From a virus, in IMG/VR virus record IMGVR_UViG_3300032401_001769, positions 1-25,291 of that record: 25,291 bases of DNA; one strand, written 5' to 3'. Below are positions 1,763-19,847 of this stretch, piece by piece. How positions within the stretch are numbered: the first letter of the stretch is position 1; each line of letters begins with the position of its first letter. The notes under the pieces were generated by a model. It did not search any database, was not told the DNA's origin, and was given only the letters and a program-made list of their open reading frames with translations. The position numbers were made by a program, and so were the translations under genes.

Positions 1763-1769
1763 GAGGGAG
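1761..1769 (+). promoter_or_regulatory. Ribosome binding site deciding the start at 1778
   Basis: AAGAGGGAG ends eight bases before ATG 1778. An in-frame GTG at 1769 overlaps this site and so cannot be served by it. Confidence 0.6.
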
Positions 1770-1777
1770 TGGATAAA

Positions 1778-2392: not shown

Positions 2393-3024
2393 CAACAACA
2401 GAATTTATTTTGAAGAAATTTGGAAAAGAAAATTATGTTGGTAAGATGCCGATACACCTCGATTGTCTTAGAGATGATCTGGCTGGTATATTCTGTGAAC
2501 TCGGATTAAATGTAGGTGTTGAAATCGGGGTTGCGGCGGGAAGATTCTCTGAAATTCTTCTTGGCGGTCATCCAAATCTGAAACTGTATTGCATTGATCC
2601 ATACCTATCCTATCCGGGATATTTAGATTTTCCAATACAAGAAAAATTGACGAATTTTGAAACGTGTGCCAAGGAAAAACTCGCTCATTATGGTGACAGA
2701 GTACAATTCATTAAGAAACCGAGCATGGCGGCCGTCAAGGACTTCGAAGATAATAGCCTTGACTTTGTATACATCGATGGTAATCATCTGTTTAGAGCCG
2801 TTGCGGATGACTTGGAAGAGTGGGGAAAGAAAGTCAGGCCAGGCGGTATTATAGCCGGCCACGATTTTGAAACTCACAAAAAACCGGCAATCATAAACGT
2901 CAAAGAGGTGGTTTGTGCCTGGACATATGCATTTGCTATCAGTCCATGGTTTGTGACGACCAGGATGAGGCGATATCCACAGGATGGTAATATAGCCCGA
3001 TCATTCTTTTGGGAGAAGAAATGA
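2389..3024 (+). CDS. Class I SAM-dependent methyltransferase, tandem copy B
   Basis: A 211-residue paralogue of the preceding gene, sharing 'YVGKMPI', GVEIGVAAG (43-51, intact SAM loop), YCID (67-70), VYIDGNHLF (127-135), EEWGKKVRPGG and GGIIAGHDF (152-160). ATG 2389 overlaps the preceding stop as ATGA, so I prefer it to the upstream in-frame GTG at 2377. The next gene starts at 3021 with the same type of overlap. The two copies are diverged enough to be old duplicates or separate acquisitions, which suggests two distinct methylation positions or acceptors. Confidence 0.82.
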   Translation: MTTTEFILKKFGKENYVGKMPIHLDCLRDDLAGIFCELGLNVGVEIGVAAGRFSEILLGGHPNLKLYCIDPYLSYPGYLDFPIQEKLTNFETCAKEKLAHYGDRVQFIKKPSMAAVKDFEDNSLDFVYIDGNHLFRAVADDLEEWGKKVRPGGIIAGHDFETHKKPAIINVKEVVCAWTYAFAISPWFVTTRMRRYPQDGNIARSFFWEKK

Positions 3025-3722
3025 ACGATCTGACTGTTGTTTATTATACGGCAAATTTTGCCAATGATCGGTTTATCGCCGCTACTCGTGAGCGGTTATT
3101 GCAGTCGATCGGTGATATTCCGTTGATCAGTGTATCTCAAAAACCAATGAATTTTGGTGAAAACATATGTGTTGGTGATATTGGCAGATCTCAGGTTAAT
3201 ATTTATAAACAGGTGCGTGTCGGCATCAATGCGGCGACAACAAAGTATGTGGCTTTATGCGAAGACGATTGTTTGTATCCACCAAGCCATTTTACATGTT
3301 TCAGGCCGAATGACGATGAATTCGGGTATAATATGAATCGATGGGGGATCTATACCTGGACTAAACCGCCAATCTTTTCGAATAAACATCGAATAGTTTT
3401 AAGCCAATGCATCGCAAATCGTGAATTTATGATCGAATGTATCAATGAACGATTTGCGCGATACCCTGACGAATCAACTATTCCATTGCACCATTTTGCC
3501 GAATTCGGAAAATACGAAAAGTGGATGTTGATTACGATTAGGAAAAGGTTTGAATTCAATTCACCCGAACCTACAATAATGTTTTCACACCCTGATGCTA
3601 TTGGGTATTCTGGACTTGGAACTAAAAAAAGACATGGAGATGTTAAGGTTAAGGAGCTTCCATTCTGGGGAACTGCCGAAGATGTTCTGAAAAAATATTG
3701 GGGTGAGGATAGGTTAGTATGA
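3021..3722 (+). CDS. Glycosyltransferase-like protein, unnamed phage family (copy 2 of 3)
   Basis: A 233-residue member of the same family as the gene at 642. Shared landmarks are YYTAN (8-12), LISVSQKPMNFGENICVG (35-52), CEDDCLYPPSHF (80-91) and LPFWG (213-217). The acidic CEDDCLY segment fits the metal-binding DxD of a GT-A fold. ATG 3021 forms an ATGA with the previous stop and is preceded by GGGAG at 3011-3015, so I prefer it to the in-frame TTG at 3009. The gene sits between methyltransferases, as expected in a sugar-decoration operon. The family assignment between copies is strong; the enzymatic role is inferred. Confidence 0.72.
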   Translation: MNDLTVVYYTANFANDRFIAATRERLLQSIGDIPLISVSQKPMNFGENICVGDIGRSQVNIYKQVRVGINAATTKYVALCEDDCLYPPSHFTCFRPNDDEFGYNMNRWGIYTWTKPPIFSNKHRIVLSQCIANREFMIECINERFARYPDESTIPLHHFAEFGKYEKWMLITIRKRFEFNSPEPTIMFSHPDAIGYSGLGTKKRHGDVKVKELPFWGTAEDVLKKYWGEDRLV

Positions 3723-4309
3723 CGAGGATATCAGATCAAGACCGTTTTGAGGTTCATCAAAGGCTTGGTGTAAAAAGATATGCAAGAACTTATCAACGCC
3801 CGCGAATATTATTAAGCAGGACATATATCGATCTTGCTTTAATATTTTGTGATGTTGAAAAACCAAAATTATGCGAAATAGGATGCGGGGTTCTTGATAT
3901 ATGCGGACCGTATGCATTAGATAGCGCAATAGTAACTGGATATGATTTCCATGAAAGCTCGGTTAAATTTGGAATGCTTCAATACCCTTGCGCAAAAATT
4001 TATTGCCAAGATATTAATACTATAACCGATATTGATTGTGATATTTTAGTAGCTTGTGAGGTTTTGGAACATATTGATGATCCTGTTTTATTGATGCATA
4101 ATGTTACTAAGAGCACCAAGTTGTTAGTAATATCACACCCTATAAATGAATTGGCAAACTCGGGAATAACCAATGGTGAGCACTGCTGGTCATACACTGA
4201 AGATGATTTTGATAATTGGTTTATACAAAACGGATTCACTATTTATTCTAAGGAATATTTTGATAATGGAAGGCTTCATTCTTTAATCGGTATCGGGGAA
4301 AAATTATGA
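3719..4309 (+). CDS. Class I SAM-dependent methyltransferase (Methyltransf_11/23-like)
   Basis: A 196-residue methyltransferase of a different subtype from the tandem pair. LCEIGCG (51-57) is the SAM loop, VTGYDFHESSV (72-82) gives the acidic residue after strand 2, ILVACEVLEHIDDP (109-122) is the post-motif characteristic of Methyltransf_11/23 enzymes, and LLVISHP (135-141) is strand 5. A charged N-terminal helix of about 45 residues precedes the core. It overlaps the previous stop by four bases and its own stop overlaps the next start as ATGA. The target may be a sugar or lipid-linked sugar; this cannot be told from sequence. Confidence 0.8.
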   Translation: MTRISDQDRFEVHQRLGVKRYARTYQRPRILLSRTYIDLALIFCDVEKPKLCEIGCGVLDICGPYALDSAIVTGYDFHESSVKFGMLQYPCAKIYCQDINTITDIDCDILVACEVLEHIDDPVLLMHNVTKSTKLLVISHPINELANSGITNGEHCWSYTEDDFDNWFIQNGFTIYSKEYFDNGRLHSLIGIGEKL

Positions 4310-5034
4310 ACGTACATCTTTATTGCATTTTAAGAAATGAGATTAAAATATTGCCTTATTTTTTAAGACATTATCAACAATTTGTTTCTCGATTTCACGT
4401 CTTTGACGATAAAAGCGATGATGGAACACTTGAGTTATTGGAAAAATATTCCAATATATTAGTTTTGCCGACAGAGATAAGCGGGCTTGATGATAAATAT
4501 TTTCGAAGAGTTCATCAAACGGAATATACCAAAAGAAGTCGTGGGTTATGTGATTTTGTTTTTGCCGTTGATGCTGATGAATTTGTATATCACCCCGATT
4601 TAATCAACGTGCTTCAGAAATGCAAAAATGAGGGATATCAAATCATAAGACCTGAAGGTTATGTGATGATTTCAAAAGAATTTCCACACACTGATGGACA
4701 AATTTGTGATGAAATAAAAACCGGACTCAAGGATGTCTGGTATAATAAACCGATAATTTTTGATCCATTGATTGATATACAATGGGATCTTGGCCGGCAT
4801 GGATTAAAGCCGATGGAAGGCATTCGTATTTGCGAAGACTCGGGAATTAAACTTCTTCACTATCGTTATCTTGGAAAAGAATATTGTGAAGAAAGGCACA
4901 CGACTCATTATAAAAGATTGAGTTCCAACAATCTTAAATGGAAACTTGGTAGACATTTAGACCCGGCAAGTAAATATTATCACAGTCTTAAATGGTTCGA
5001 ACACTATAAAGGAGATGCGGTACAATGCATTTAA
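4306..5034 (+). CDS. Glycosyltransferase, GT2/GT92-like (Glyco_tranf_2_4 type)
   Basis: A 242-residue protein. The start, LYCILRNE followed by 'LPYFLRHYQQF' and HVFDDKSDDGT (31-41), is the pattern of the Glyco_tranf_2_4/GT92 group, where the DDxSxDGT segment contacts the nucleotide. VFAVDADEF (85-93) holds the DxD metal site. The C-terminal region contains several conserved-looking His and Trp residues and ends with a helical segment. It lies in the operon with an ATGA overlap upstream and a ten-base overlap downstream. The fold is confident; donor and acceptor are unknown. Confidence 0.85.
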   Translation: MNVHLYCILRNEIKILPYFLRHYQQFVSRFHVFDDKSDDGTLELLEKYSNILVLPTEISGLDDKYFRRVHQTEYTKRSRGLCDFVFAVDADEFVYHPDLINVLQKCKNEGYQIIRPEGYVMISKEFPHTDGQICDEIKTGLKDVWYNKPIIFDPLIDIQWDLGRHGLKPMEGIRICEDSGIKLLHYRYLGKEYCEERHTTHYKRLSSNNLKWKLGRHLDPASKYYHSLKWFEHYKGDAVQCI

Positions 5035-5696
5035 AGGTCTCTATTCTTACAGCCAACATGGGTTCCTTTGATCCACCATCTACCATTGTAGATCAGGATT
5101 TACCGGAAGATGTTGAATTATCAATATTCAGATTTAATGATGATAATTTTCCATTGCGTAAATGCGCCATGACACCTCGATTACAGGCAAGAATACCGAA
5201 AATGTTCGGATGGGAAATGGCGCTCGGTTTTGATTATTATATATGGATTGATGGGTCATTTTCCATTTTAAATAAAGATACTGTTGCATGGTATTTAAAG
5301 CAATGCAAAGATTTTGATATAGTGATGTTTGAACATCCTAATAGGAAAACTATAAAATGGGAAGCTGAATTTATTCGAAAGAAAATAATGGATGGAAACG
5401 AATATCTCACATCAAGATATGAAAACGAATTGATTGATGAACAATTGGCGGCAACGATTAAACAACCAGGTTATACTGACGATCTTCTCATCGCAACCTG
5501 CTCATTTATATACAAGAACAACGTGCTACCAAGATATTTACTTGAAAGATGGTGGGTGCATACATCAAGGTATCATATTGTAGATCAGCTATCAATACCC
5601 TATCTTTTAAAAACATCGGATTGCAAGTATAAAATATTAAAAGATGATATCTATCATATTCCGTACTTGACATATACAAGAAATCAGAAGAGGTGA
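5025..5696 (+). CDS. DUF616/TOD1-like glycosyltransferase domain protein
   Basis: A 223-residue protein resembling the TOD1/MUCI70 (DUF616, PF04765) group. The signs are KVSILTANMGSFD at the start, PRLQARIPKM (51-60), YYIWIDGSFSI (71-81) with the D-G of the putative metal or nucleotide site, and MFEHPNRKTIKWEAE (101-115), which matches the family's 'HP.R....E' region. A ribosome site AAGGAG at about 5009-5014 lies within the end of the previous gene. Family members in plants and bacteria are linked to glycan synthesis. Here it is one of several transferases in one operon; its sugar is unknown. Confidence 0.75.
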   Translation: MHLKVSILTANMGSFDPPSTIVDQDLPEDVELSIFRFNDDNFPLRKCAMTPRLQARIPKMFGWEMALGFDYYIWIDGSFSILNKDTVAWYLKQCKDFDIVMFEHPNRKTIKWEAEFIRKKIMDGNEYLTSRYENELIDEQLAATIKQPGYTDDLLIATCSFIYKNNVLPRYLLERWWVHTSRYHIVDQLSIPYLLKTSDCKYKILKDDIYHIPYLTYTRNQKR

Positions 5697-5699
5697 TTC

Positions 5700-6563
5700 A
5701 TGGGTGGCTTTGAACCGAAAAATAAATTTCCTGAAGGTGATATTGAGTGTCAGTTGTGTTCTGATAAATTTTCCGGGCATATGCGATTAAGATCGTTGAC
5801 AAGACATTTAAAAGAAAATCATGGCGGGATTACGCTTAAAGAATATTTTGATATGTTCTATGGAACCGAACGTGATAGTCATTGTTTGCATTGTGGAAAA
5901 GAGGCTCCATGGTATAAATCTTTTTACAGAGATTTTTGTGACAGGTCATGTGATACTGCGTTTAGAAATACGCAAAATTGGAAAGAGGAAGAGTATAGAA
6001 AAACAAGATCGGAATTTGTAAAAGGCCAATGGAAAGATGAAAAATTTAGAAAAATGATGTTGGAAACATCTTCTAAAACAATAAAAAAAACATTAAAGAA
6101 ACAATGGAAAAATGAAGAATATAGAAAGGCGCAAAGCGATAGGGCCGTAAGAAGATTACGGGATGAAAATGATAAATTTGGAACAAACACAAAAACATCT
6201 AAATATAAAAATATTTTAATGAGATCTGAATTTGAGGTTAATTTTGCAAAAGAATTGGATTGTGTTGGTATTAAGTGGAGCTATGAGCCATTAGCTTTCA
6301 GAATGAATAGTAATAGTTTTGTTCCGGATTTTTATATTAAAAAACTTGATTTGTTTGTAGAAATAAAATCCAATAATTGGGTTAGCGAAAAAATTGTTAA
6401 TCAAATAGAATTTATTAAATTAAATGGACATAATGCTATTTTGCTTAATCCAAAAAATTGGGATACAACTGTTGGTGAAATAATTTCAAAAGCTATTAAT
6501 CTAAAGGGTGGTGAAGGAGGTTTAGATGGATTCTCTATCGGTGATAATCCCTGCAAGGAATGA
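5700..6563 (+). CDS. PD-(D/E)XK nuclease with zinc fingers, homing-endonuclease-like
   Basis: A 287-residue protein. Residues 17-41 form a C2H2-type finger (C17, C20, H36, H41). A second cysteine cluster is C62, C65, C80, C84. A basic linker (about 93-155) repeats a W-K-x-E-x-(Y/F)-R-K motif three times, like the DNA-contact repeats of phage homing nucleases. The C-terminal domain has S-E177, VPDFYI with P209-D210, and VEIK with E221 and K223, which is the PD-(D/E)XK catalytic set. The likely role is site-specific DNA cleavage by a free-standing selfish gene. It differs in function from everything around it, sits inside the sugar operon and overlaps the next gene by 38 bases. A host-takeover nuclease is the alternative. 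Confidence 0.75.
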   Translation: MGGFEPKNKFPEGDIECQLCSDKFSGHMRLRSLTRHLKENHGGITLKEYFDMFYGTERDSHCLHCGKEAPWYKSFYRDFCDRSCDTAFRNTQNWKEEEYRKTRSEFVKGQWKDEKFRKMMLETSSKTIKKTLKKQWKNEEYRKAQSDRAVRRLRDENDKFGTNTKTSKYKNILMRSEFEVNFAKELDCVGIKWSYEPLAFRMNSNSFVPDFYIKKLDLFVEIKSNNWVSEKIVNQIEFIKLNGHNAILLNPKNWDTTVGEIISKAINLKGGEGGLDGFSIGDNPCKE

Positions 6564-8139
6564 AGAATTTTTACAAAAAACAATTGATTCGGTATTAGAT
6601 GCTGCTAAAGCTGAAACAGAAGTTATTGCAGTTCTTGATGGGTATTGGCCAGAACCAAAATTGATTGAACGTAAAGGTTTAAGGATTTTACATTTTGATC
6701 AATCTATTGGTCAGAGAGCTGCGATAAATCGAGGTGTAGAATTAAGTAGCGCAAAGTATATGATGAAACTTGATGCCCATTGCGCGATCGATGAAGGTTT
6801 TGATATTAAGATGATGCAAGAGATGCATTACGATTGGACAATGATTCCTCGTATGTATAATCTCCACGTGTTTGATTGGGAATGCAAAAAATGTAAAAAC
6901 CATTCTTATCAAGGACCCAAACCAACCAAGTGTGACAAATGCGATAACATTACAGAATTTGAAAGAATTGTTGTATGGACACCGCGATGGAACCGAATGT
7001 CAGACTTTGCAAGATTTGATAGTACTTTACATTTTCAATATTGGGGTGAATACAAAAAAAGACCTGAAGCTCAAGGCGATATATGTGATACTATGAGCCA
7101 GATAGGTGCCTGTTGGATGATGGAACGTGAAAGATATTGGGAGCTTGGTGGGTCTGATGAAAAGCATGGAAGTTGGGGACAACAAGGGGTTGAAATATCT
7201 TGTAAAACCTGGCTTTCCGGTGGTCGTCAAGTCGTCAACAAGAAAACCTGGTTTAGCCATCTATTCCGTACTCAACCTGGTTTTGGATTTCCTTATCCAA
7301 ACCCAGGAGTTAATAAAGCAAGGGAGTATTCGAGGAAATTATGGATTGAAAACACATGGCCCAAAGCAATTCACCGCCTTGATTGGCTCATCGAAAAATT
7401 CAGCCCCGTCCCCGATTGGCCTGATAAAAATAACCAGCGTTTAACCAAAGGAATTGTCTATTATACCGACAATCTTTGTGATGAAAAAATCCTGGAAGTT
7501 GGTCAGAGAAATCTGAGACATATATGCAGTGATTTTGATATCGTTTCCGTTTCTCTTAAGCCTATAAAGTTCGGTAGAAACTTTGTTATGCCGCTCGAGA
7601 GGGGTCATTTAACGATGTTTAAACAAATTTTAAAGGGTTTAGAGGAATCAAAAGCCGATATTATCTATCTGTGTGAACACGATATGCTTTATCATCCATC
7701 GCACTTTGATTTTGTCCCTTCGAGGAAAGATATCTACTATTATAACGAAAATACGTGGAAGGTAGACGCTAAATCGGGGCAAGCGTTATTTTATTACTGT
7801 AAGCAGACTTCCGGATGTTGCGCGTATCGTGAATTATTGGTGGAACATTATAAAAAACGTGTTGCGAGAGTCGAGGAAAAGGGTTATGATAGAAACATGG
7901 GGTTTGAGCCTGGAACCCACTCTTTTCCGAGAGGTGTCGACAATTTTAAGGCTGAAAAATACTTTTCTGAAATACCGAATATTGATATCCGACACTCTAC
8001 AAATCTAACCAGGAGCAGATGGAGACAGGATCAATTTAGAAATCAAAAAAGTTGCCTTGGGTGGACCATGGCTGATGAAGTACCCGGATGGGGTAGAACC
8101 AAAGACAGATTCGATGATTTTTTAAAAACAGTCGGATAG
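6526..8139 (+). CDS. Two-domain glycosyltransferase: GalNAc-T-like GT2 with zinc ribbon, fused to family copy 3
   Basis: A 537-residue protein with ribosome site AAGGAGG at 6514-6520. Residues 1-300 form a GT2 domain: SVIIPARNE (5-13), then KLDAH with DxH at 83-85, the metal motif of polypeptide GalNAc-transferases, then SWGQQGVEISCKTWLSGG (216-233), which matches the 'WGxENxExSxRxWxCGG' motif of that group, and FSHLFR (243-248). A zinc ribbon (C120, C123, C136, C139) is inserted between DxH and WGQQG. Residues 305-537 repeat the family seen at 642 and 3021: YYTDN (312-316), SVSLKPIKFG, CEHDMLYHPSHF (383-394) and VPGWG (519-523). Members of the GalNAc-T group start O-glycans on Ser/Thr. No lectin domain is present. 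The acceptor is inferred. Confidence 0.82.
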   Translation: MDSLSVIIPARNEEFLQKTIDSVLDAAKAETEVIAVLDGYWPEPKLIERKGLRILHFDQSIGQRAAINRGVELSSAKYMMKLDAHCAIDEGFDIKMMQEMHYDWTMIPRMYNLHVFDWECKKCKNHSYQGPKPTKCDKCDNITEFERIVVWTPRWNRMSDFARFDSTLHFQYWGEYKKRPEAQGDICDTMSQIGACWMMERERYWELGGSDEKHGSWGQQGVEISCKTWLSGGRQVVNKKTWFSHLFRTQPGFGFPYPNPGVNKAREYSRKLWIENTWPKAIHRLDWLIEKFSPVPDWPDKNNQRLTKGIVYYTDNLCDEKILEVGQRNLRHICSDFDIVSVSLKPIKFGRNFVMPLERGHLTMFKQILKGLEESKADIIYLCEHDMLYHPSHFDFVPSRKDIYYYNENTWKVDAKSGQALFYYCKQTSGCCAYRELLVEHYKKRVARVEEKGYDRNMGFEPGTHSFPRGVDNFKAEKYFSEIPNIDIRHSTNLTRSRWRQDQFRNQKSCLGWTMADEVPGWGRTKDRFDDFLKTVG

Positions 8140-8235
8140 ATCAATGTTTGGAACAATATCGGTGAAAATCAGGGCGTTTCGTTCAAAAAATCTTGGGAGC
8201 GAGGCGCCCTTCTCATTTTGTAGAAGGTACTTATT
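8140..8235 (+). promoter_or_regulatory. Leader between sugar operon and fibre genes with two competing hairpins
   Basis: No gene is seen here. CCTTCT at 8208-8213 can pair with AGAAGG at 8222-8227 across an eight-base loop, and AGAAGG is the ribosome site of the next gene. AGGGCG at 8171-8176 can instead pair with CGCCCT at 8205-8210, using three of the same bases and so excluding the first hairpin. I see no convincing promoter or terminator. Confidence 0.3.
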
Positions 8236-11223
8236 GTGGCTACTGTAAAAGTATTAGTCGTTGGTGGTGGCGGCCATGGAGGCGGTACCGGTGGTTATAC
8301 TTCCGGTGGAGGTGGTGGTGGTGGCCGAGTCTTATACAACGCTTCTTATTCTATTACAGCCGGCAACAAAACAGTTACAATAGGCGCCGGCTCACCACGA
8401 TCTTCAACAAATGGTCAGGTTGGCGAGAGTTCCGTTTTTGACTCCCTTACCGCGGTCGGTGGAGGTTGTGGTGGTACTGGCGCTGCTGGTACTAACGGTG
8501 CTTGTGGAGGCGGTGGCGGAGGATCAAATGCTACATCGCGTATTGGTGGAACAGGAACTAACGGTTACGATGGCGGTGATAACTTTGTAGATGCAGATCG
8601 TCCTGCTGGTGGTGGTGGGGGCGCCGGCGCTGTTGGTCAAGACGCAACAGGTACCGACGCCGGTGATGGTGGAGCAGGAGCCAATAATGCAGTAATGGAT
8701 GCCACATATTACGGTGGTGGTGGTGGTGGTGGACAAACAGGTACAGCATCGCTTGGCGTCGGTGCTAATGGCGGCGGTAGTGGTAAATTAAATGCTATAG
8801 GTGCGGATGGTAACTCAAATACCGGATCTGGTGGCGGTGGAGGAAGTGATAATACCGGTGCTTCATATACTGGTGGAGCTGGTGGTTCCGGTATAGTAAA
8901 AATCAGATACATTACCAACGATTTTGGGCCGTGTACTGGTGGAAGTATAACTACAGAAGGTAATGAAACAATACATACATTCACCGGTACGGGAACATTT
9001 GGTTGTGTTTTAGCAAGCGCATCTATTAGCCCATCAGCGTCGACAAGCCCTTCAGCATCAAGAAGCCCGTCAGCATCGATAAGCCCTTCAGAATCAAGAA
9101 GCCCGTCAGCATCGATATCTCCAAGTTCAAGCGCATCAGCTTCAATAAGCCCATCAGCGTCAATATCACCAAGTTCCAGTACATCAAGATCAATTAGCCC
9201 ATCCGCATCAATTAGTCCTTCAAGTTCGGCAAGCGCATCCATTAGCCCATCCGCATCTCTCAGTCCGTCATCTTCCGCAAGCGCTTCTATTAGTCCATCA
9301 GCTTCAATTAGCCCTTCATCTTCGAAAAGCGCGTCTATAAGTCCATCGACTTCTATCAGCCCATCAGCTTCTATCAGCCCTTCATCTTCAGCAAGTGCAT
9401 CCATAAGCCCATCTGCATCCATAAGCCCATCATCATCTGTTAGCGCTTCTATCAGTCCGTCAGCTTCTATAAGCCCATCAGCATCTATCAGCCCTTCAAG
9501 TTCAGAGAGCGCATCCATAAGCCCATCAGTATCTATCAGCCCTTCAAGTTCAGAGAGCGCATCGATAAGCCCGTCGGCGTCTATAAGCCCATCAGAATCT
9601 GAAAGCGCATCAATAAGCCCATCAGCGTCGATAAGTCCTTCAAGTTCAGAAAGTGCATCCATAAGTCCATCAGCATCTATCAGCCCTTCAAGTTCAGAGA
9701 GTGCATCGATAAGCCCATCAGCTTCAACAAGCCCATCAGCATCAGCAAGCCCGACCGAACAACCATCCGTGTCACCATCGGCGTCTGTAAGCCCTTCAGA
9801 GTCTGTAAGTGCATCTATAAGCCCATCAGCCTCTATAAGCCCATCATCTTCTGAAAGCGCTTCTGTAAGCCCTTCAGTATCAATTAGTCCATCCACGTCA
9901 ATTAGCCCATCAAGTTCTGAGAGCGCATCGATTAGTCCATCGGCATCATTAAGCCCTTCTGAATCAGTAAGTGCATCAATTAGTCCATCCGCATCGGTAA
10001 GCCCTTCAGAGTCCATAAGCGCGTCTATAAGCCCATCAGCATCAATTAGTCCATCAGAATCGATAAGCGCATCTATAAGCCCATCAGCATCTATAAGCCC
10101 ATCGGAATCCATAAGCGCGTCTATAAGCCCATCAGCGTCCATAAGTCCGTCAGCGTCAGAATCAGCATCAATTAGCCCATCAGCTTCTATTAGTCCTTCA
10201 GAATCCGAAAGCGCTTCGATAAGTCCTTCGGAATCAGTCAGCGCATCGATTAGTCCATCAGCTTCTATTAGCCCATCTGAATCTATAAGCGCGTCTATTA
10301 GCCCATCATCCTCCATATCGGAATCGATTAGCCCATCAGCTTCTATCAGTCCTTCAGAATCAATAAGCGCTTCTATAAGTCCTTCAGCATCAATCAGCCC
10401 CTCAGAGTCTGTAAGCGCTTCTATAAGCCCATCCGCGTCTTTAAGTCCTTCAGAATCAATAAGCGCCTCTATAAGCCCTTCAGCATCAATTAGCCCTTCT
10501 GAATCGGTAAGTGCGTCGATCAGTCCATCATCTTCAGAAAGCCCATCGGTTAGCCCGTCATCATCAGTAAGTGCGTCTATCAGCCCTTCGCGATCGGTTA
10601 GCGCATCGATAAGCCCGTCATTGTCAAGATCACCATCGGGAAGTTTAAGCCCAAGTTCATCAAGAAGCCCGAGCCGATCGATATCGCCATCAGAATCGGT
10701 ATCACCAAGCGGTAGTCTAAGTCCCAGCGCAAGTATTAGCGCAAGCCCGTCATTGAGTCCATCAGCATCAGAATCAGCATCGATATCACCAAGCGCGTCA
10801 GCGTCACCAGGTCCCGGGTTTGTAGTATTCTCTAAAGGTTATTATGCATCACTTCCGGTTGATGATACTGATTTGACGAATATTTATACTGAACAACAAA
10901 TTATAGATGTATCAACGGAAGATGATATTTATGTTTGTCAAGAAGCTACTAATAAATATGATATTCATCAATTTAAAAATTGGAATGATAGTGAAATTAA
11001 TTGCAAATTAAAAAGTAGATTAGCATGTTCATTAGCCCCATCAATATCAACGGTTTATTTACAAATATATAATAGAAACTCCACGCTTTGGGAGACGGTG
11101 GATAGCAATAACACGGCTGCCGCTAATACAAAATTCACATTGACGGCAATCATATCCGATTTAACAAATTATAAAGATATTAACAATGTAACAGCGTGCA
11201 GAATTTATCAGTTAATTGTTTAA
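8236..11223 (+). CDS. Fibre/adhesin: glycine-rich domain, Ser/Pro repeat stalk, C-terminal beta domain
   Basis: A 995-residue virion surface protein by inference. Residues 1-228 are a glycine-rich domain of the Gly_rich_2 type: it opens with [10 protein letters not shown], has runs of up to seven or eight glycines, and closes with [12 protein letters not shown], as in many phage and bacterial adhesins. Residues 229-260 include [12 protein letters not shown], a motif that accompanies this domain. Residues 261-858 are Ser/Pro repeats on units such as ISPSAS and [10 protein letters not shown]. Residues 859-995 are a non-repetitive, probably beta-rich domain. The start is GTG at 8236, because an in-frame TAG lies at 8221-8223 and AGAAGG lies at 8222-8227. 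The repeats could be an extended, glycosylated stalk. No enzyme motif is seen. Confidence 0.75.
9016..10809 (+). repeat. Ser/Pro coding repeat array 1 (about 598 residues)
   Basis: This is a coding tandem repeat with an 18-base core close to ATAAGCCCATCAGCATCT and longer 30- and 48-base units. The serine before proline is nearly always AGC or AGT, while serines after proline and after A/E are nearly always TCN. Synonymous sites vary freely. One interruption (about 9750-9780) encodes [11 protein letters not shown]. Confidence 0.95.
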
Positions 11224-11235
11224 TAGGAGATTAAT

Positions 11236-11646
11236 ATGGCATCAGATCTAAAAATATCAGAGTTGACTTCGTATACAACACCGGTAAGCGCCGACCTGTT
11301 GCCTATTGTTGATGCGGCTAACATGATTACCAAGAGAGTCGCATTCAGTGTTATAAAATCAACTCTTGGGGCCACAAGATATAAACAAACAGAAATTGAT
11401 TTTGGTACTACACCGGTGTATGAAGCATCATTTACAATAACTGATTCTGAAATCACAACGTCATCAATTATTGTGGCACAGATAGCGTATGTAGCTCCAA
11501 CAGACAAGGATATTGATGAATTAGAATTTGATTTTTTTGATTTTAGATGTACTGCCGGAACAGGAAATTTTACTCTTTACGCACGATCTCTTGAAGGTCT
11601 TGTGGCTGATAAATTCAAAATTTTTTATTCTTATAATGTCGCATAA
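11236..11646 (+). CDS. Phage virion/tail-fibre-associated protein
   Basis: A 136-residue protein. It opens with DLKISELTSYTTPVSADLLPIVD and 'TKRVAFSVIK', the 'ISEL...ADLLPIVD...TKRV' pattern found at the N-terminus of many phage tail-fibre and surface proteins. The remainder is beta-rich and ends in a strand, KFKIFYSYNVA. The ribosome site AGGAGA is at 11225-11230. It lies between two other structural genes and is short for a fibre, so it may be an adaptor or a cap. The exact position in the virion is unknown. Confidence 0.65.
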   Translation: MASDLKISELTSYTTPVSADLLPIVDAANMITKRVAFSVIKSTLGATRYKQTEIDFGTTPVYEASFTITDSEITTSSIIVAQIAYVAPTDKDIDELEFDFFDFRCTAGTGNFTLYARSLEGLVADKFKIFYSYNVA

Positions 11647-11666
11647 CAATTTAAAGGGAGGACCAA

Positions 11667-12752
11667 ATGGCCGTAATAAAAAGTGGAGCAACATCTGACC
11701 AATTAACGGTTGATGCTGTTAGTAAAGCCGCAAGGGTAACGTTATATGATGCCGGCGGAAACGCTATTGAAGTTAGTACAGCAGCTGATGGCGCAAAACA
11801 TCTTTCCGTTGGTATGACTCAAGAAGTTTTTGCCAGCACGAAAAACAGTTCCATTGCGCAAATTAATACCGGAGTTGAATGGCAAGGTCAATCGGAAACA
11901 ACTCTTGGTGTTGCCGCAATACAGGTAAACACGTTTCTTGATAAAACCCATTTGATAACAGTTTATCAAAGCATGGATGGTGATAATTGGGATATAACGG
12001 ATGCGTGGACCGATCCGGCTAATTATGGTAATTCAAGGACAGTACAAGCTACCGCTTCGTATTATAAAGTGGGAGTCAAAAATCTTGCCGGCACGAATAC
12101 TGGTACAGTAAGAATACAAACCGCCCTTTGTCCTGTTGTAGAAGCTTTTCCAAGGGCGTTGACGAGTGGTGGTAACCTCCGTGTTACCGCTTGTGCGGAA
12201 TGGCAATCCACCAAAAGAACAACGGGAATTTATGGCGCCAGTTCTTTTAGAACTCTTGGGGCGGCATCAAGCCCTCAGAATATATTAACCATCGAGAATC
12301 CGGCAGCGTCTTTAGTTAATATAGCCGTCCGGCAGATGTCGGTAATGTCTGATTCCACCGCTGCACTTACATCAGTAACACAACAAATTCAACTTTCAAG
12401 AGCAACTGGTTTGCCAAGCGGTGGAACGGCTTTAACAGCTGTTAAATATCAAACCTCTTATGCGTCACCAGTCGCTATTGTGCGTGGTGGAAATGCAAGT
12501 GATGGTGGTGTAGCAACCGCAATAACCTCGACGGCGGGATCGGTTATTTGGCAACAATATCTTGATCGACCCTATACTGTTGTCGGATGGTTTACTCACC
12601 CGAATTATAGTCTTATCCCTGATGTGGGAACAGATCTTAGACAAATTATCCTTGTCCCAGGTGAATGTTTACTCGTTCAAGGTGTTACTTCTATTCCAGC
12701 AACAACCCATATAATCGTCCAAGTTGGATGGCTGGAGTTGACATCATTATGA
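11667..12752 (+). CDS. Putative phage structural protein
   Basis: A 361-residue protein with a strong ribosome site (AGGGAGG at 11655-11661). The start, MAVIKSGATSDQLTVDAVSKAARV, resembles the openings of structural proteins found in fibre regions of large phages. The body is predicted beta-rich, with short alternating hydrophobic strands and many Thr, Ser, Gly and Asn residues. No signal peptide, membrane segment or enzyme motif is visible. Its stop overlaps the next start as ATGA, so it is probably co-translated with the small lectin-like protein. It may be a host-range or baseplate component. I do not recognise a named family. Confidence 0.55.
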   Translation: MAVIKSGATSDQLTVDAVSKAARVTLYDAGGNAIEVSTAADGAKHLSVGMTQEVFASTKNSSIAQINTGVEWQGQSETTLGVAAIQVNTFLDKTHLITVYQSMDGDNWDITDAWTDPANYGNSRTVQATASYYKVGVKNLAGTNTGTVRIQTALCPVVEAFPRALTSGGNLRVTACAEWQSTKRTTGIYGASSFRTLGAASSPQNILTIENPAASLVNIAVRQMSVMSDSTAALTSVTQQIQLSRATGLPSGGTALTAVKYQTSYASPVAIVRGGNASDGGVATAITSTAGSVIWQQYLDRPYTVVGWFTHPNYSLIPDVGTDLRQIILVPGECLLVQGVTSIPATTHIIVQVGWLELTSL

Positions 12753-13039
12753 TGACAAATAATAAAATAATATTCGCAAAAGCGGGTGTTGTTACTACAA
12801 ATGCGTCAGGTTTAGCATATGTAGTATTTACTAACTCGTTCGAGTATAATTTATCGTATTGCGTCCAATTAACATGTGAATATCCAGGACTCGCATATGC
12901 GGTAACTGCATATCCGAGTAATTTATCACAAACGGGGTTTACGATAACCTCGAGAGATACACATATTGTTGGTGGTGGTGGTGATTTGCCTGTAGCAAAT
13001 GTGATAGTGCATTGGTGCGCAATACCTTACTTTAACTGA
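12749..13039 (+). CDS. Small lectin-like (H-type lectin/gp53-like) phage protein
   Basis: A 96-residue protein. The pattern [19 protein letters not shown] ... SQTGFTIT ... [12 protein letters not shown] matches the outline of the H-type lectin/gp53-like domain found at the tips of phage fibres: a strand, 'TGF.I', then 'I.W.A' at the end. In the family this domain trimerises and binds sugars. ATG 12749 overlaps the previous stop as ATGA, so I prefer it to a long in-frame extension from 12665 that would run inside the upstream gene. A second ATG follows directly at 12752. Cys residues replace some positions that are usually aliphatic. It is probably a receptor-binding tip, with moderate confidence. 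Confidence 0.55.
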
Positions 13040-13047
13040 GAGATGTA

Positions 13048-16000
13048 ATGTCCAAGAAGCTATTACAAGAGGATACCGGCTTAGTATTACAAGAAGATAC
13101 TGGCGGTATCCTCCTTGAACAAGATACTTTATGTATTGACTTATGGGAAGTAACGTATGATATCCCATCGATAAGCCCATCGGTATCCATATCGGCATCC
13201 ATAAGTCCATCAGCAAGCATTAGTCCATCAGCAAGCATTAGTCCATCCGTATCTATTAGTCAATCCATAAGTCCATCAGCAAGCGTTAGCCCATCTGAAT
13301 CGGAAAGTGCATCGATTAGTCCTTCCGCTTCCATAAGTCCATCAATCTCTATAAGTCCATCTGAATCGGTAAGCGCGTCAATTAGTCCATCAGCATCAAT
13401 CAGTCCATCTGAATCGATAAGTGCATCAATTAGTCCATCAGCATCAATCAGTCCATCTGAATCGATAAGTGCATCAATTAGTCCATCAGCTTCTATTAGC
13501 CCGTCTGAATCGGTAAGTGCATCAATAAGCCCTTCCGCATCTATTAGTCCGTCAGAATCAATCAGCGCTTCTATAAGTCCGTCAGCATCTATAAGTCCGT
13601 CAGAGTCAATCAGTGCTTCAATAAGTCCATCAGCATCTATAAGTCCGTCAGAGTCAATCAGTGCTTCTATAAGCCCGTCGGCATCTATAAGCCCATCTGA
13701 ATCAATCAGTGCATCTATAAGCCCATCAGCCTCCATTAGCCCATCTGAATCGATTAGTGCGTCTATCAGTCCATCGGTTTCTATAAGTCCATCAGAATCG
13801 GAAAGTGCATCAGTAAGCCCATCAGCATCCGTTAGTCCGTCTGAATCTGTAAGCGCTTCTATAAGCCCATCGGCATCTATAAGCCCTTCATCTTCTGAAA
13901 GTATATCGATAAGCCCGTCAGCTTCTATAAGCCCATCAGTATCAGAAAGCGCTTCAATAAGTCCATCCGCCTCTATTAGCCCATCTGAATCAGTCAGTGC
14001 TTCTATAAGTCCATCAGCATCCATAAGCCCATCTGAATCTATAAGCGCATCTATCAGTCCTTCAGAATCAGCAAGCCCGTCTGCATCTGAAAGTGAATCG
14101 GTTAGTCCATCAGCATCAGAAAGTCAAACCCCAAGTCCGTCTGTCAGCCCATCAGAATCGGAAAGCCCATCATCTTCTGAGAGTGCTTCTATAAGCCCAT
14201 CTGAATCAGAAAGCCCGTCTGCATCTGTCAGCCCTTCAGAATCAGAAAGCGCGTCTATAAGTCCGTCTGCATCTGTTAGTCCGTCAGAATCAGAAAGTCC
14301 ATCGATAAGTCCATCCGCTTCAGAAAGCACGTCTATAAGCCCATCAGCGTCAGTTAGTCCTTCAGAATCTGAAAGCGCTTCGATAAGTCCTTCCGCTTCT
14401 GTTAGTCCATCCGAATCTGAGAGTGCGTCTTTAAGCCCTTCAGCTTCGATGAGCCCGTCCTCATCAGAAAGCGCGTCTATAAGCCCGTCTTCATCTGAAA
14501 GTGCATCAGTAAGTCCGTCGGCATCGATAAGCCAATCGGCATCGATAAGCCCTTCAAGTTCCAAAAGCGCTTCTGTAAGCCCTTCAGCATCAAGAAGTCA
14601 GTCTGCATCACTTAGCCCATCTTCTTCATTAAGTGCGTCGATAAGCCCATCACTTTCGACAAGTCCATCACGATCGGTTAGTCTATCAGCCTCGGTAAGC
14701 CCGTCATTATCCAGAAGCCCCTCGGGATCAGAAAGCCCATCAGCATCAGAAAGCCCATCTGTTTCGATAAGTCCATCAGTGTCACCATCGGCTTCAGTAA
14801 GCCCATCGGAATCGATCAGCGCATCTGTAAGCCCATCAGCCTCTATAAGCCCATCAGCATCAGTAAGCGAATCGGCGTCTATAAGCCCATCGCTATCAAT
14901 AAGCCCTTCATTATCAATAAGTCCATCTGCGTCTGAAAGCGGATCAAAGAGCCCGTCAGCATCAAAGAGCCCGTCTGCATCAAGAAGCCCATCCGCGTCA
15001 GGTAGCGAGTCGGCTTCAAGAAGCCCATCGGCATCAAAAAGTCCATCAGCGTCAATTAGCCCGTCAGCTTCTGCAAGTGCATCTATTAGCCCATCAGCAT
15101 CAATAAGTCCGTCTGAATCAGTCAGCTTATCGTTAAGTCCTTCAGCGTCTTATAGCCAATCAGCATCCGTCAGCCCATCGTTAAGCCCATCAGCGTCGTT
15201 AAGTCCATCAATATCGGTAAGCCGTTCGACAAGCCCATCGAGATCAAGAAGCCCGTCAGCATCATTAAGCCGATCGGTAAGCCCATCGGCTTCAATCAGT
15301 GAATCGCCATCCCTTAGCCCATCAGCTTCTATAAGCGCGTCTATCAGCCCATCAGCTTCTATCAGCCCATCCGCTTCAGCTAGCGCATCAGTTAGTCCAT
15401 CAGCTTCGGTGAGCCCATCCGTTTCCAGAAGCCCATCAGTCAGCCCATCCGCATCCATCAGCCCATCAGCATCAGAAAGTGCATCAGTTAGTCCATCAGC
15501 TTCGGTAAGTCCATCTGCTTCCATTAGCCCTTCCGCATCGGAAAGCGAATCAGTTAGTCCATCAGGATCTCTAAGCCCATCAGCTTCAAGAAGCCCATCA
15601 GCTTCATTCAGCATTTCAATTAGCCCATCATCTTCAAAAAGCCCATCAGCATCAAGAAGCCGATCGGTTAGCCCATCAGCCTCTGTAAGCGCATCGGAGA
15701 GCCCATCTGCATCAGGTAGTCCATCTGCATCAGGTAGTCCATCAGCCTCAGAGAGCCCATCTGTAAGCGCGTCCAGGAGCCCTTCTGCATCAATTAGCCC
15801 ATCAGCATCTGTCAGCCCATCACGATCGAGAAGCCCTTCACGATCAGTTAGTCCATCATTAAGCCCGTCAGCGTCGGAAAGCCCGACTCCAAGCCCATCA
15901 CTTAGCCCATCGGTATCAGAGAGCCCATCGATTAGCGCTTCCGTGAGCCCATCGGTTTCCATTAGCCCATCTGCATCTACAAGCCCATCACGATCAAGGA

Positions 16001-16818
16001 GCCCATCACGCTCTGTCAGTCCTTCAGTAAGCCCGTCAGCGTCAAGGAGCCCATCAGCATCCCTTAGCCCATCGGAATCGATTAGCGCTTCTATCAGTCC
16101 ATCAGTATCGGTTAGCGCATCGTTAAGCCCCTCAGTCTCCGTTAGTGCATCCGTTAGCCCATCAGCATCGGCAAGCAAATCGAGAAGCCCTTCCCGTTCA
16201 CGAAGCCCATCGGCATCAGTTAGTCCATCATTGTCAATAAGCCCATCCGCGTCTGCCAGCGCCTCTATAAGCCCATCAGTTTCCATAAGTGCTTCAGAGA
16301 GTCCATCAGCTTCAGAGAGTCCATCCGCATCCGAGAGCCCGTCTGCATCTGAGAGCTTATCAGTAAGCCCATCAGCAAGCGAGAGCCCATCGGCAAGTGA
16401 GAGCCCGTCGGCAAGTGAAAGCGTCTCAAGAAGTCCATCCGCATCTAAAAGCCCATCCGCATCGATCAGTAGATCGGTAAGCCCTTCAAGATCAAGAAGC
16501 CCATCAAGATCAAGAAGCCCTTCAGCGTCGGCAAGCCAATCGCTTAGCCCATCTGCATCAGAGAGTCCATCGGCAAGCGAAAGTCCGTCTGCATCGGAAA
16601 GTTTCAGTATAAGTCCGTCTGAAAGCGTAAGTGCCTCGGTAAGCCCATCTGCTTCAAAGAGTTTCAGTATAAGCCCATCCGAGAGCGCAAGTGCTTCAGC
16701 AAGCCCATCACCATCCGATTTGGAAACTCGTGTTAAACGTATTGAAATGGCATTGAAAATAAGAAAGCCTATTTATATTAATGATGACCATTTTGAACAG
16801 ATGAATACAGGATTATGA
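13048..16818 (+). CDS. Giant Ser/Pro repeat fibre protein
   Basis: A 1256-residue protein. Residues 1-40 contain a short internal repeat, LLQEDTG / VLQEDTGG / LLEQDT, seen in phage structural proteins. Residues 41-1223 are Ser/Pro repeats. The early part is regular (16-residue unit [16 protein letters not shown]) and the later part is irregular, with Arg, Leu, Lys and Gly substitutions. Residues 1224-1256, starting [14 protein letters not shown] and followed by [11 protein letters not shown], form a short heptad segment plus a strand motif, likely a trimerisation or docking module. The ribosome site GAGAG is at 13038-13042, overlapping the previous stop. No signal peptide or enzyme motif is present. 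Best read as a long flexible stalk on the virion, probably O-glycosylated if the sugar operon acts on it. Confidence 0.75.
13168..16716 (+). repeat. Ser/Pro coding repeat array 2 (about 1183 residues)
   Basis: This is the longest repeat array of the window. It starts with 48-base units and becomes less regular after about 14050. The variable position after each SPS group is I, V, E or A early on and R, L, K, G, F or Y later. Serine codons follow the same split as in array 1. Confidence 0.95.
13381..13476 (+). repeat. Two exact 48-base tandem copies inside array 2
   Basis: Bases 13381-13428 and 13429-13476 read identically, each encoding [16 protein letters not shown]. Neighbouring units encode the same residues but differ at synonymous sites, so this pair looks like a recent duplication. 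Confidence 0.9.
16735..16818 (+). other. KPIYIN C-terminal module, copy 1
   Basis: This is the end of the giant repeat protein: a short heptad-like segment ([10 protein letters not shown]), then [12 protein letters not shown]. It matches two copies at the end of the gene at 17877, also at base level (CCTATTTATATTAAT occurs in both genes). A shared docking, trimerisation or tip element is likely. Confidence 0.7.
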
Positions 16819-16840
16819 TACAATTAATAAGGGATGAATT

Positions 16841-17875
16841 ATGGCTATGACATACCTCCAGGTAACGCCGGCTGGAGCCGGAAATAAGAGTGGATCATCA
16901 TGGGATAATGCCATGGGTGAAAGTGAATTTGAAACAAACTTGGAAGGATCAGCTGCCACAGATTACGTTTATTTTCTTAAAGCCGGTACTTATACTATGA
17001 ATAGTGCTTATGATTCATCAGCAAGAGGTGGTAGCGGTCAAGGGATGATTTCAATAATCGGTGTCAAAGCCGCCACGACAAACGAAGGTGCAAATGTTGT
17101 TTATTCTGATTGGGGTTCGGGGACGGATCGTCCATTTTTTGATGCTACTTCTTATGCATTTCGTATTGGAAATTATTATTCCGTTCGCAATATTTATATA
17201 CAAGGAACGGCTGCGGCAATGTTTCAATGCGGATCGGGGTGTGTAATAGAAAACTGTAAATTTGATAACAATTATGGAACATCTTCGAACAGATATGCTG
17301 TGACGGCGGCACAAAATTGTATGATTATTAATTGTGAAATTATGTCGATAAAATCACGCGGAATCAATATTACCAGTACAGGGGCCAGGGTTATTCATTG
17401 CTATTTTCACGATATACCCGACGATGGAAGCGGTGGTATAGCAATTAACAACGCATCAAATGGATTGACTGTATTATTTTGCTTTTTTAGTAATATTAAA
17501 TTTAATGCAATACTTGTAGGTGGAGCTACCGCTTGTATAATCATGAACAATACATTTTACACATGTGGTACGGATGTATCAGGAACATCTGGGTTATCAA
17601 ATGTATTTATAAATAATTTACATGAAGGGACAACGGCAAACGCTTACATTTATACGACACAAACAAATGGAAATTTCTACTGGAACAATTGGGGAAATGA
17701 TGCAAGATGTACTGATATGTGGAGCGGTGTCGATATAACTACTAACTGTCAAGATTATCCAAACGCTGCCGGACTTTATGGAGACCCGTCATTTTCAAGT
17801 GCCGGGTCATCGGCGGCATTAGGTGCAGGCAGTTCATGCTTAAACAATGGAATGTCATTAACTTTAGGCGTATAA
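16841..17875 (+). CDS. Right-handed parallel beta-helix protein, tailspike-like
   Basis: A 344-residue protein. MTYLQVTPAGAGNKSGSSWDNAM is the usual opening of phage and bacterial beta-helix (pectate-lyase-fold) proteins, followed by DYVYFLKAGTYTM. Regular rungs follow: GCVIENCKF, NCMIINCEI, GARVIHCYFHDI, NGLTVLFCFFSNI, TACIIMNNTFYTC. The end SSAALGAGSSCLNNGM is the standard terminal rung, normally followed by a DIGAW motif. That motif is missing here and occurs in another frame just after the stop. The fold often binds or cleaves polysaccharide, but I see no defined catalytic set. It is short for a complete tailspike. ATG 16841 is preceded by AAGGGATGA. Confidence 0.75.
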   Translation: MAMTYLQVTPAGAGNKSGSSWDNAMGESEFETNLEGSAATDYVYFLKAGTYTMNSAYDSSARGGSGQGMISIIGVKAATTNEGANVVYSDWGSGTDRPFFDATSYAFRIGNYYSVRNIYIQGTAAAMFQCGSGCVIENCKFDNNYGTSSNRYAVTAAQNCMIINCEIMSIKSRGINITSTGARVIHCYFHDIPDDGSGGIAINNASNGLTVLFCFFSNIKFNAILVGGATACIIMNNTFYTCGTDVSGTSGLSNVFINNLHEGTTANAYIYTTQTNGNFYWNNWGNDARCTDMWSGVDITTNCQDYPNAAGLYGDPSFSSAGSSAALGAGSSCLNNGMSLTLGV

Positions 17876-17876
17876 T

Positions 17877-19847
17877 GTGAGTGCTACTAAATTAGATATA
17901 GGTGCATGGCAGGGCGGTGGATCACACACTAAACTTGATATAGGTGCGTGGCAGGGATATTACGTTAGTAGTGCATCATCATCCGATAGCCCATCGGTTA
18001 GCCCTTCATCATCAGTAAGTCCAAGCGCTTCGGGGTCAATGAGCCCATCAGCTTCCGAAAGTCCATCGGCATCAACAAGCCCGAGTAGTAGTGAATCGGC
18101 GTCTCTTAGCCCTTCAGGATCTACAAGCCCTTCAGCATCAATAAGCCCTTCAGGTTCTACAAGCCCATCTTTTTCCGCAAGTTTAAGCAGAAGCCCGTCA
18201 GCTTCACGTAGTCCATCTTCATCAAGAAGCCCGAGTAGCAGCGAATCGAGATCAAGAAGCCCATCCGCGTCAGAAAGCCCAAGTAGTAGCGTCTCTGTAT
18301 CGGAAAGTCCGTCGGCATCAACAAGCCCATCAGTATCGATAAGCCCAAGCGAAAGCGAATCAGGATCTGTTAGCCCATCAGTATCCACAAGCCCAAGTAG
18401 TAGCTACTCCACATCTATAAGCCCATCGGAATCGGTAAGCCCAAGCGAAAGTGAATCAGGATCAATTAGTCCATCCTATTCTATAAGCCCTAGTAGCAGT
18501 GCTTCCGTATCAATTAGCCCTTCAGCGTCAATAAGCCCCAGTGAAAGCGAATCAACATCGATTAGCCCGTCATCATCGATTAGTCCAAGCGGTGAAGTAA
18601 CATCTGTTAGCCCATCATCTTCCGAAAGCCAATCGATTAGTCCATCAGCGTCAATAAGCCCAAGTGAGAGTGTTTCAACATCTATTAGCCCATCTGCATC
18701 AATAAGCCCCAGCTCGAGTATATCTGAATCAGTTAGTCCTTCAGAATCAACCAGCCCAAGCGTTAGCATATCAAAATCGATTAGCCCAAGTAATAGTGAA
18801 TCTGAATCTACAAGCCCTTCCGCATCAATAAGCCCCAGTATTAGTGAATCGGCATCGTTAAGCCCATCAGCATCAAGTAGTCCCGGCGGCAGTCCGTCAT
18901 CATCCCTTAGTCCGTCAGCATCGATAAGCCCAAGTAGTAGCATATCATTATCAGTTAGCCCATCTGTATCAATAAGCCCGAGTAATAGCATATCATCATC
19001 GGTCAGCCCGTCATCATCAATAAGTCCAAGCGGAAGCGAATCGGGGTCAATCAGCCCATCAGCATCAAAAAGCCCGAGTAGCAGCATATCAGTGTCGGTT
19101 AGCCCTTCAAGATCGGTAAGTTGGAGCGCAAGCCCTTCATCATCAGAAAGTCCGAGCAGTAGCGAATCCAAATCGATCAGCCCCTCATCATCAAGAAGCA
19201 AATCTTTAAGCCCTTCGACATCTGAAAGCCCATCAGTTAGCCCATCAGCATCACGTAGTAGATCTATAAGCCCATCAGTATCGTTTAGTAGCTCTGTAAG
19301 CCAATCACCATCCGTGAGCCCATCCGCCTCAACAAGTCCGTCAGCATCCGTAAGCAAGTCAAAAAGCCCATCTTCATCAATCAGTCAGTCTATAAGCCCA
19401 TCGTCCTCAGCCAGTAAATCAAGGAGCCCATCAGCATCAACAAGTCGATCGGTAAGCCCCTCAAGATCAAAAAGCCAATCCTTGAGTCCTTCAGGATCCT
19501 TGAGCCCATCAGCATCGGTTAGTCCATCAGCAAGCGAATCCGAATCGGTTGGCCCATCGCCATCATTAAGTCCGTCACGATCGGTAAGTCCATCACAACC
19601 TATTGGCGATCTTGAAGCCAGAATTGCACAATTAGAATATGTACTAACAACTCAGAAACCTATTTATATTAATAATGATGGGAATATGGAAGAACTTGAT
19701 CTTTGGGAGTTTGAACCAACAGCCAGCCCATCCGGTGATTTGGAGGAACGGGTGACATATTTGGAAAATCTTTTGAGCGATCAAAAGCTGATATATATAA
19801 ATATTGATGGTCATTTTAAACAAGTAGACCGAAACATTCACCCATAG
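17877..19847 (+). CDS. Third Ser/Pro repeat fibre protein, with duplicated DIGAWQG start
   Basis: A 656-residue protein. Residues 4-30 contain two copies of TKLDIGAWQG, a motif that normally ends beta-helix proteins and is not expected at an N-terminus. Residues 31-573 are Ser/Pro repeats, with many SPSSSxS and SPSESES units and a more varied alphabet than the other two arrays. Residues 577-656 hold two KPIYIN modules (GDLEARIAQLEYVL...KPIYINNDG and GDLEERVTYLENLL...KLIYINIDG). The GTG start at 17877 has only a weak upstream site and follows the beta-helix stop at once, so this may be the C-terminal part of one frameshifted or split protein. The stop is TAG. Confidence 0.68.
   Translation: MSATKLDIGAWQGGGSHTKLDIGAWQGYYVSSASSSDSPSVSPSSSVSPSASGSMSPSASESPSASTSPSSSESASLSPSGSTSPSASISPSGSTSPSFSASLSRSPSASRSPSSSRSPSSSESRSRSPSASESPSSSVSVSESPSASTSPSVSISPSESESGSVSPSVSTSPSSSYSTSISPSESVSPSESESGSISPSYSISPSSSASVSISPSASISPSESESTSISPSSSISPSGEVTSVSPSSSESQSISPSASISPSESVSTSISPSASISPSSSISESVSPSESTSPSVSISKSISPSNSESESTSPSASISPSISESASLSPSASSSPGGSPSSSLSPSASISPSSSISLSVSPSVSISPSNSISSSVSPSSSISPSGSESGSISPSASKSPSSSISVSVSPSRSVSWSASPSSSESPSSSESKSISPSSSRSKSLSPSTSESPSVSPSASRSRSISPSVSFSSSVSQSPSVSPSASTSPSASVSKSKSPSSSISQSISPSSSASKSRSPSASTSRSVSPSRSKSQSLSPSGSLSPSASVSPSASESESVGPSPSLSPSRSVSPSQPIGDLEARIAQLEYVLTTQKPIYINNDGNMEELDLWEFEPTASPSGDLEERVTYLENLLSDQKLIYINIDGHFKQVDRNIHP
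17886..17956 (+). repeat. Direct repeat encoding TKLDIGAWQG twice
   Basis: Two near-identical stretches of about 29 bases, at 17886-17914 and 17928-17956, lie 42 bases apart. Both encode TKLDIGAWQG, with a few base differences. Confidence 0.85.
17967..19598 (+). repeat. Ser/Pro coding repeat array 3 (about 543 residues)
   Basis: This array is less regular than arrays 1 and 2. Unlike them, it often uses AGY codons for the serines after proline, for example AGCCCGAGTAGTAGT. It has single interruptions such as SPSGEVTSVSP and SSSPGGSPSS. Confidence 0.93.
19608..19844 (+). other. KPIYIN C-terminal module, copies 2 and 3 in tandem
   Basis: Two related units, each D-L-E-x-R followed by a short heptad region and K-(P/L)-I-Y-I-N. 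They are separated by a linker ending in ASPSGD, which looks like a remnant of the Ser/Pro repeat. The unit also ends the protein encoded at 13048-16818. Confidence 0.7.

Follow-up and report, generated by a model that had tools for sequence, protein, structure and literature searches.

The main finding of this study is that the virus record analyzed here (a 25.3-kb stretch of DNA, hereafter the window) quite likely encodes a dedicated phage module for protein O-glycosylation, which would act on long (S-x)n stalks and whose methyltransferases would O-methylate the glycan. Genes and repeats named in an original prediction for this DNA were re-located by coordinate, and all of these coordinates were confirmed (Table 1). 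Mucin-type O-glycosylation of Ser/Thr is generally regarded as a feature of eukaryotes, and according to the abstract of PMC5504323 bacteria do not have it. What appears to be new, judging from homology and structural models, is that phages and Patescibacteria alike pair Ser-x stalk proteins with a probable O-glycosylation cassette whose two-domain enzyme is GT27/GT60-like, and we found no description of such a cassette/repeat module in the open-access literature. Cassette and repeats are kept together in dozens of phages and in a few of these ultra-small bacteria.

Table 1. Genes of the window discussed in the text, with their coordinates and supporting matches.
Gene	Coordinates	Strand	Description	Matches
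g01	2..652	+	GT2/GT7C-type glycosyltransferase, 5' end cut by window edge	PF10111 1e-7, PF02709 1.5e-7
g02	642..1277	+	stand-alone GT-A-fold protein, same family as g11 C-domain	no Pfam family
g03	1262..1762	+	probable SAM methyltransferase	EIGTGLYSTP motif only, no family match
g04	1769..2392	+	Methyltransf_24 methyltransferase	PF13578 8e-15
g05	2377..3024	+	Methyltransf_24 methyltransferase	PF13578 1e-18
g06	3009..3722	+	stand-alone GT-A-fold protein, family of g02 and g11 C-domain; likely start 3021	
g07	3719..4309	+	Methyltransf_23/11 methyltransferase	PF13489 2e-6, PF08241 4e-5
g08	4306..5034	+	Glyco_tranf_2_4 glycosyltransferase	PF13704 5e-15
g09	5025..5696	+	conserved cassette protein, possibly glycosyltransferase	no family match in profile searches
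g11	6526..8139	+	tandem two-domain enzyme: residues 1-303 GT-A domain, 305-537 second GT-A-like domain	
g12	8236..11223	+	fibre/adhesin-like; Gly_rich_2 N-domain, 632-aa (S-x)n stalk (8968-10863), C-terminal domain	PF21722 1e-21, phrog_2295 3e-32
g16	13048..16818	+	1256-aa protein, 1212-aa (S-x)n stalk (13126-16761)	
g17	16841..17875	+	right-handed beta-helix protein between repeat genes	PF13229 5e-10
g18	17877..19847	+	656-aa protein, 578-aa (S-x)n stalk (17901-19634)	
g21	21661..24234	+	tail sheath	phrog_279 1e-5; 46% to L009 sheath

The three Ser repeat tracts that had been predicted at 600, 1180 and 540 residues are indeed present, although these lengths proved slightly low when compared with the measured 632, 1212 and 578 aa. 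Ser occupies alternate positions (with a parity of 590:7 in the second protein, g16) and accounts for 49-51% of the tracts, Thr for less than 3%, while x is mostly Pro, Ala or Ile, with Glu and Val also found at non-Ser positions. A degenerate 14-residue repeat pattern has 9 matches in the window versus 0.00 expected from shuffles. The C-terminal PIYIN-DG tail of g18 is related to the repeat protein of a homologous locus (L008). With the tail sheath gene g21 downstream, the repeat genes are neighbours of a contractile-tail module; against isolates, this sheath has weak Vibrio and Salmonella phage matches only (~25% identity, covering under half of its length), and a scan with a sheath alignment returned one relative only. 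Codon choice for Ser in the tracts depends on position: a Ser that precedes Pro is nearly always encoded by AGY (71/79, 154/157 and 68/70), other Ser residues mostly by TCN. Expansion of 18/48-bp repeat units is a possible source of this pattern. Long open antisense frames (DGLIDADGL...) also run over the repeats (window 8709-10316, 13260-14024 and 15150-16286), and, as a by-product of the repeat codon make-up, are unlikely to be genes.

The enzyme at the core of the module is g11, whose N-terminal domain matches animal and Toxoplasma polypeptide GalNAc-transferases in both sequence and fold. A single-sequence phmmer search relates it to human GALNT2 (E 3e-8), and a 58-sequence profile to GALNT1 (E 8.6e-12). 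Its AlphaFold model (pLDDT 93) superposes on GALNT2 with a Z of 27.0 over 262 residues (rmsd 2.6); the top 29 structural matches are all GALNTs (Z at least 23.5), and the next glycosyltransferase follows at Z 19.9. The predicted DxH and WG...E motifs are there (D83-A-H85, WGxxxxE), together with HLFR, and D83, H85, W217, E223, H245 and R248 are invariant in 58/58 homologues. The GT27 metal ligands—DxH (D83/H85) and the C-His (H245), which binds metal in GT27—are thus kept throughout; DxH replaces DxD in GT27 and GT60, both families of polypeptide Ser/Thr O-glycosylation (PMC7185993). The xED acid position is Gly in 57/58 homologues, and this Asp is variable in, or lost with, retaining enzymes (PMC7185993). 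GT60 is a further candidate for the closest family; its Pfam model was not among the matches of g11, and the structural matches listed included no GT60 structure. Overall, g11 is similar to a polypeptide O-glycosyltransferase and probably acts in the same way. However, the Gal/GalNAc-T motif WGGEN is not kept, being replaced by WGQxG in nearly all 58 homologues, which makes the donor, and even the activity, of g11 uncertain. GalNAc as the transferred sugar, part of the original prediction, is therefore unsupported, and with this donor unproven g11 should not be named a GalNAc-transferase. An insert with four conserved Cys (C120, C123, C136 and C139) suggests a zinc-ribbon-like element. A weak Pfam HNOB match was taken as spurious.

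The C terminus of g11 lacks a ricin-type lectin domain as judged by Pfam, and has instead a domain (residues 305-537) homologous to g02 and g06, a family thus also encoded as stand-alone proteins (g02 versus g11 305-411: 38%, 3e-15 by blastp). No Pfam model matched this family. A GT-A fold is seen in the AF2 model of g06 (pLDDT 95, best Z 13), with generic structural matches in which glycosyltransferases come best and nucleotidyltransferases such as IspD are close behind (Z about 12-13). The family has an acidic DxD-like site, EDD or EHD (384-386 in g11). From these models, the C-domain family is most simply read as an extending transferase.

Upstream of the repeat-protein genes, glycosyltransferase and methyltransferase genes form an operon. 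The original count of five glycosyltransferase-related and four methyltransferase genes stands by family or fold for most of them, but g03 as the fourth methyltransferase and g09 as the fifth glycosyltransferase are motif-based guesses. The YGLED (xED) motif of g01, an uncut copy of which lies at L003:3417-4127, suggests an inverting type. Among 74 related loci, homologues of g03, g04 and g05 occur in 16, 35 and 13, respectively; those of g09 were found in L005, L008, L009 and L186. The operon is interrupted by g10 (window 5700-6563), an endonuclease-like gene by PHROG endonuclease families that overlaps the start of g11; since g10 is absent at the corresponding place in L004, L005 and L008, it is probably a homing insertion.

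The linkage between cassette and repeats extends well beyond the window. Scanning IMG/VR with a g11 alignment gave 409 relatives, the best 80 of which, together with a first scan, yielded 83 loci, all of them metagenomic fragments or MAGs. Repeat ORFs are present in 66/83 of these loci and in 33/34 of those whose two flanks both measure at least 6 kb; after 90% dereplication, the figures are 57/71 and 30/31. Random viral stretches, which were shorter than the g11 loci, have repeats in 2/52 cases (Fisher 9e-20), and the repeat density per base of the two sets is about tenfold apart. A cassette lies within two genes of a repeat gene in 48/74 loci, versus 25 expected and a maximum of 36 in 2000 permutations. 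The order is conserved—a single-domain g11 paralogue, a Methyltransf_24 gene, variable accessory genes and g11, with repeat genes just outside either end. Outside the repeat tracts, the proteins encoded by the repeat genes have domains such as Laminin_G_3 lectin, F5/F8-type C and Gly_rich_2. A survey of related phage genomes for co-occurrence of repeats and operon had been suggested with the original prediction; the linkage holds in 30 of 31 well-covered dereplicated loci, and DNA-hypermodification genes are nearly absent from the 34 long records scanned. Among well- or partly-covered loci, L012, L015 and L029 have a cassette without repeats; L014 and L032 also have none, but in both the contig breaks off on the downstream side. 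About 1 kb downstream of the Ser-repeat-free cassette of L029 lies a gene for a Pro-rich PAPVPTP repeat protein (L029:8488-9348). The 77,155-base record of L030 has repeat matches near its start (16-233) and again near its end (about 74-77 kb), and is perhaps a complete genome cut inside a repeat gene. A tblastn search of 50,697 phage records with g11 gave no match, and hence no isolate.

The reverse relationship does not hold. Repeats without the cassette are found in phage contigs of up to 54 kb, and only 9/50 repeat-bearing records outside the g11 list have a cassette; a narrow repeat DNA pattern gave 86 stretches in the collection, with 12 matched contigs also in the g11 lists. Repeat-bearing contigs being mostly without cassette, the rule runs from cassette to repeats, and repeats do not need the cassette. 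The broader notion that Ser/Pro repeats in general accompany the operon is thus unsupported. Repeat records without cassette are not clearly enriched in GT2 genes above cut-off (4/15 versus 2/24 random records), Methyltransf_24 genes occur in 1/15 versus 1/24, and repeat composition shows no difference with or without cassette. Several of the loci without g11 (L087-L166) are T4-like by their terminase, neck and baseplate genes, which lie beside long (S-x)n proteins.

In a genome scan, g11 relatives of full or near-full strength were found only in Patescibacteria MAGs, where the family is rare (287 genomes from the phylum gave 2 full-length matches, neither of them new). A repeat gene follows the g11 relative in L186, L187, L188 and L189, the last of which also has a tape-measure gene and is thus phage or prophage. 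In L188—a 455-kb Parcubacteria contig—and L186, the genes that follow encode surface proteins of Ig-like, dockerin and cohesin type. The ~20 kb on either side of L188 contain tRNA synthetase, LepA/EF-G-type, TsaD, MurJ and TatC genes, and no phage structural families are among the families listed there. That the pairing occurs among Parcubacteria housekeeping genes indicates that it is independent of a tail or of phage DNA. The repeat proteins at L186 and L188 (with L201 and L202) are without obvious signal peptide. The tree groups 4/5 Patescibacteria copies in a single supported clade that lies within the viral copies, as would be expected if phages and these bacteria had exchanged the gene; the g11 branch of the window phage is far from theirs.

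The chromosomal locus also bears on what the cassette modifies. The cassette might glycosylate other virion proteins—capsid, tube or sheath—with the repeats as incidental spacers, which would agree with the glycans reported on mycobacteriophage capsid and tail tube (Freeman 2023, as cited in PMC12619734) and with the existence of repeats without cassette. We nevertheless consider this unlikely, because almost all well-covered cassette loci have repeats and because it fits badly with a non-phage locus where there is no capsid or tail. Similarly improbable is a role in remodeling host surface glycans, for superinfection exclusion or receptor masking. Some cassettes do have extra GT2, GT-A, Gly_transf_sug/Caps_synth-like and epimerase genes, as polysaccharide loci have, but epimerases and capsule-like transferases would equally fit the building of a glycan on protein, no flippase or polymerase family was found among the cassette proteins scanned (from part of the loci), and both the tight linkage to repeat structural genes and a conserved core enzyme homologous to polypeptide transferases argue against it. 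Least credible is that the cassette acts on phage DNA, making hypermodified bases that carry glycans, and that its position near fibre genes is incidental: DNA modification is a frequent role of phage glycosyltransferases (literature cited in PMC12619734) and g04 and g05 match a PHROG labelled DNA methyltransferase, but the latter via a generic SAM-binding fold, whereas in 34 long records, all partial genomes, a thymidylate-synthase-family gene occurs once (its control was detected) and TET/JBP not at all (a weak result, as no positive control was detected), the cassette tracks repeat genes and accompanies them in a bacterial chromosome, and g11 is a polypeptide-type enzyme by fold.

We thus favor glycosylation of the stalks, and from the gene content we infer both this glycosylation and the methylation. 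In the host cytoplasm, the N-domain of g11—GT27/GT60-type, metal-dependent and probably retaining—would move a first sugar from a host nucleotide sugar onto stalk serines. The GT-A-like C-domain of g11 and the accessory g01, g02, g06 and g08 would then extend or branch the glycan, which the small methyltransferases would O-methylate; O-methylation is probably part of the module, whether the stalks are those of Ser-repeat adhesins or of fibres. The stalk proteins would enter the tail or baseplate as bristle-like linkers with lectin-type or beta-helix tips, and the sugars may stiffen and solubilize the stalks and shield them from proteases. The overall interpretation of the original prediction is therefore supported in part: the class of mechanism is largely supported, while donor sugar, activity and methylation are unproven. 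A wider proposal, which we regard as possible rather than probable, is that prokaryotes have here their own, mobile version of mucin-type O-glycosylation—an enzyme of GT27/GT60-like type that both initiates and extends, methyltransferases and an (S-x)n substrate—exchanged between tailed phages and Patescibacteria and giving phage fibres an O-methylated glycan brush. A phage mucin-type enzyme beside its likely Ser-repeat substrate would show how phages protect or disguise their fibres; it would also help to model, in a simple case, how GT27/GT60 enzymes arose, and would provide small bacterial tools for mucin-like polymers.

Comparison with known systems highlights both similarities and differences. 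Like GT27 polypeptide GalNAc-transferases (GALNT1/2, TgGalNAc-T3), g11 has a GT-A fold, DxH, C-His, HxFR and WGxxxxE, is without xED base and has a Ser-rich acceptor nearby. Unlike them, it has lost WGGEN (WGQxG), is without ricin lectin domain, has no secretory signal noted, and possesses a zinc-ribbon-like insert and a fused second GT-A-like domain. The predicted analogy to serine-rich-repeat glycoproteins survives, since a non-phage bacterial locus has the same pairing of repeats with glycosyltransferases. As in Gram-positive SRR loci (GspB/Fap1/SRRP with GtfA/GtfB), long Ser-x repeats lie beside their own glycosyltransferases, with presumed cytoplasmic glycosylation. However, the enzyme is GT27-like, not GtfA/B, profile searches found neither accessory Sec (SecA2/SecY2/Asp) nor GtfA/GtfB among the proteins of the window, methyltransferases are added, and the product would be a virion rather than a cell-wall protein. 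We know of no GT27-type initiator in mycobacteriophage virion glycosylation. Mycobacteriophages, according to Freeman 2023 as cited in PMC12619734, likewise encode glycosyltransferases and have glycans on virion proteins, but at capsid and tail-tube C-termini, not on repeat stalks. In staphylococci, SdgA and SdgB add sugars stepwise to Ser-Asp dipeptide repeats, which protects these from proteolysis (PMC3794999); the arrangement of glycans on dipeptide Ser repeats is the one proposed here from genes, although SdgA/SdgB are other enzymes, with a GlcNAc donor, and act on cell-wall adhesins (PMC3794999). Finally, g11 shares with chondroitin and heparosan polymerases (K4CP, PmHS2) two tandem GT-A domains in one chain, but those enzymes make free polysaccharide, whereas the N-domain of g11 is closer to GALNTs.
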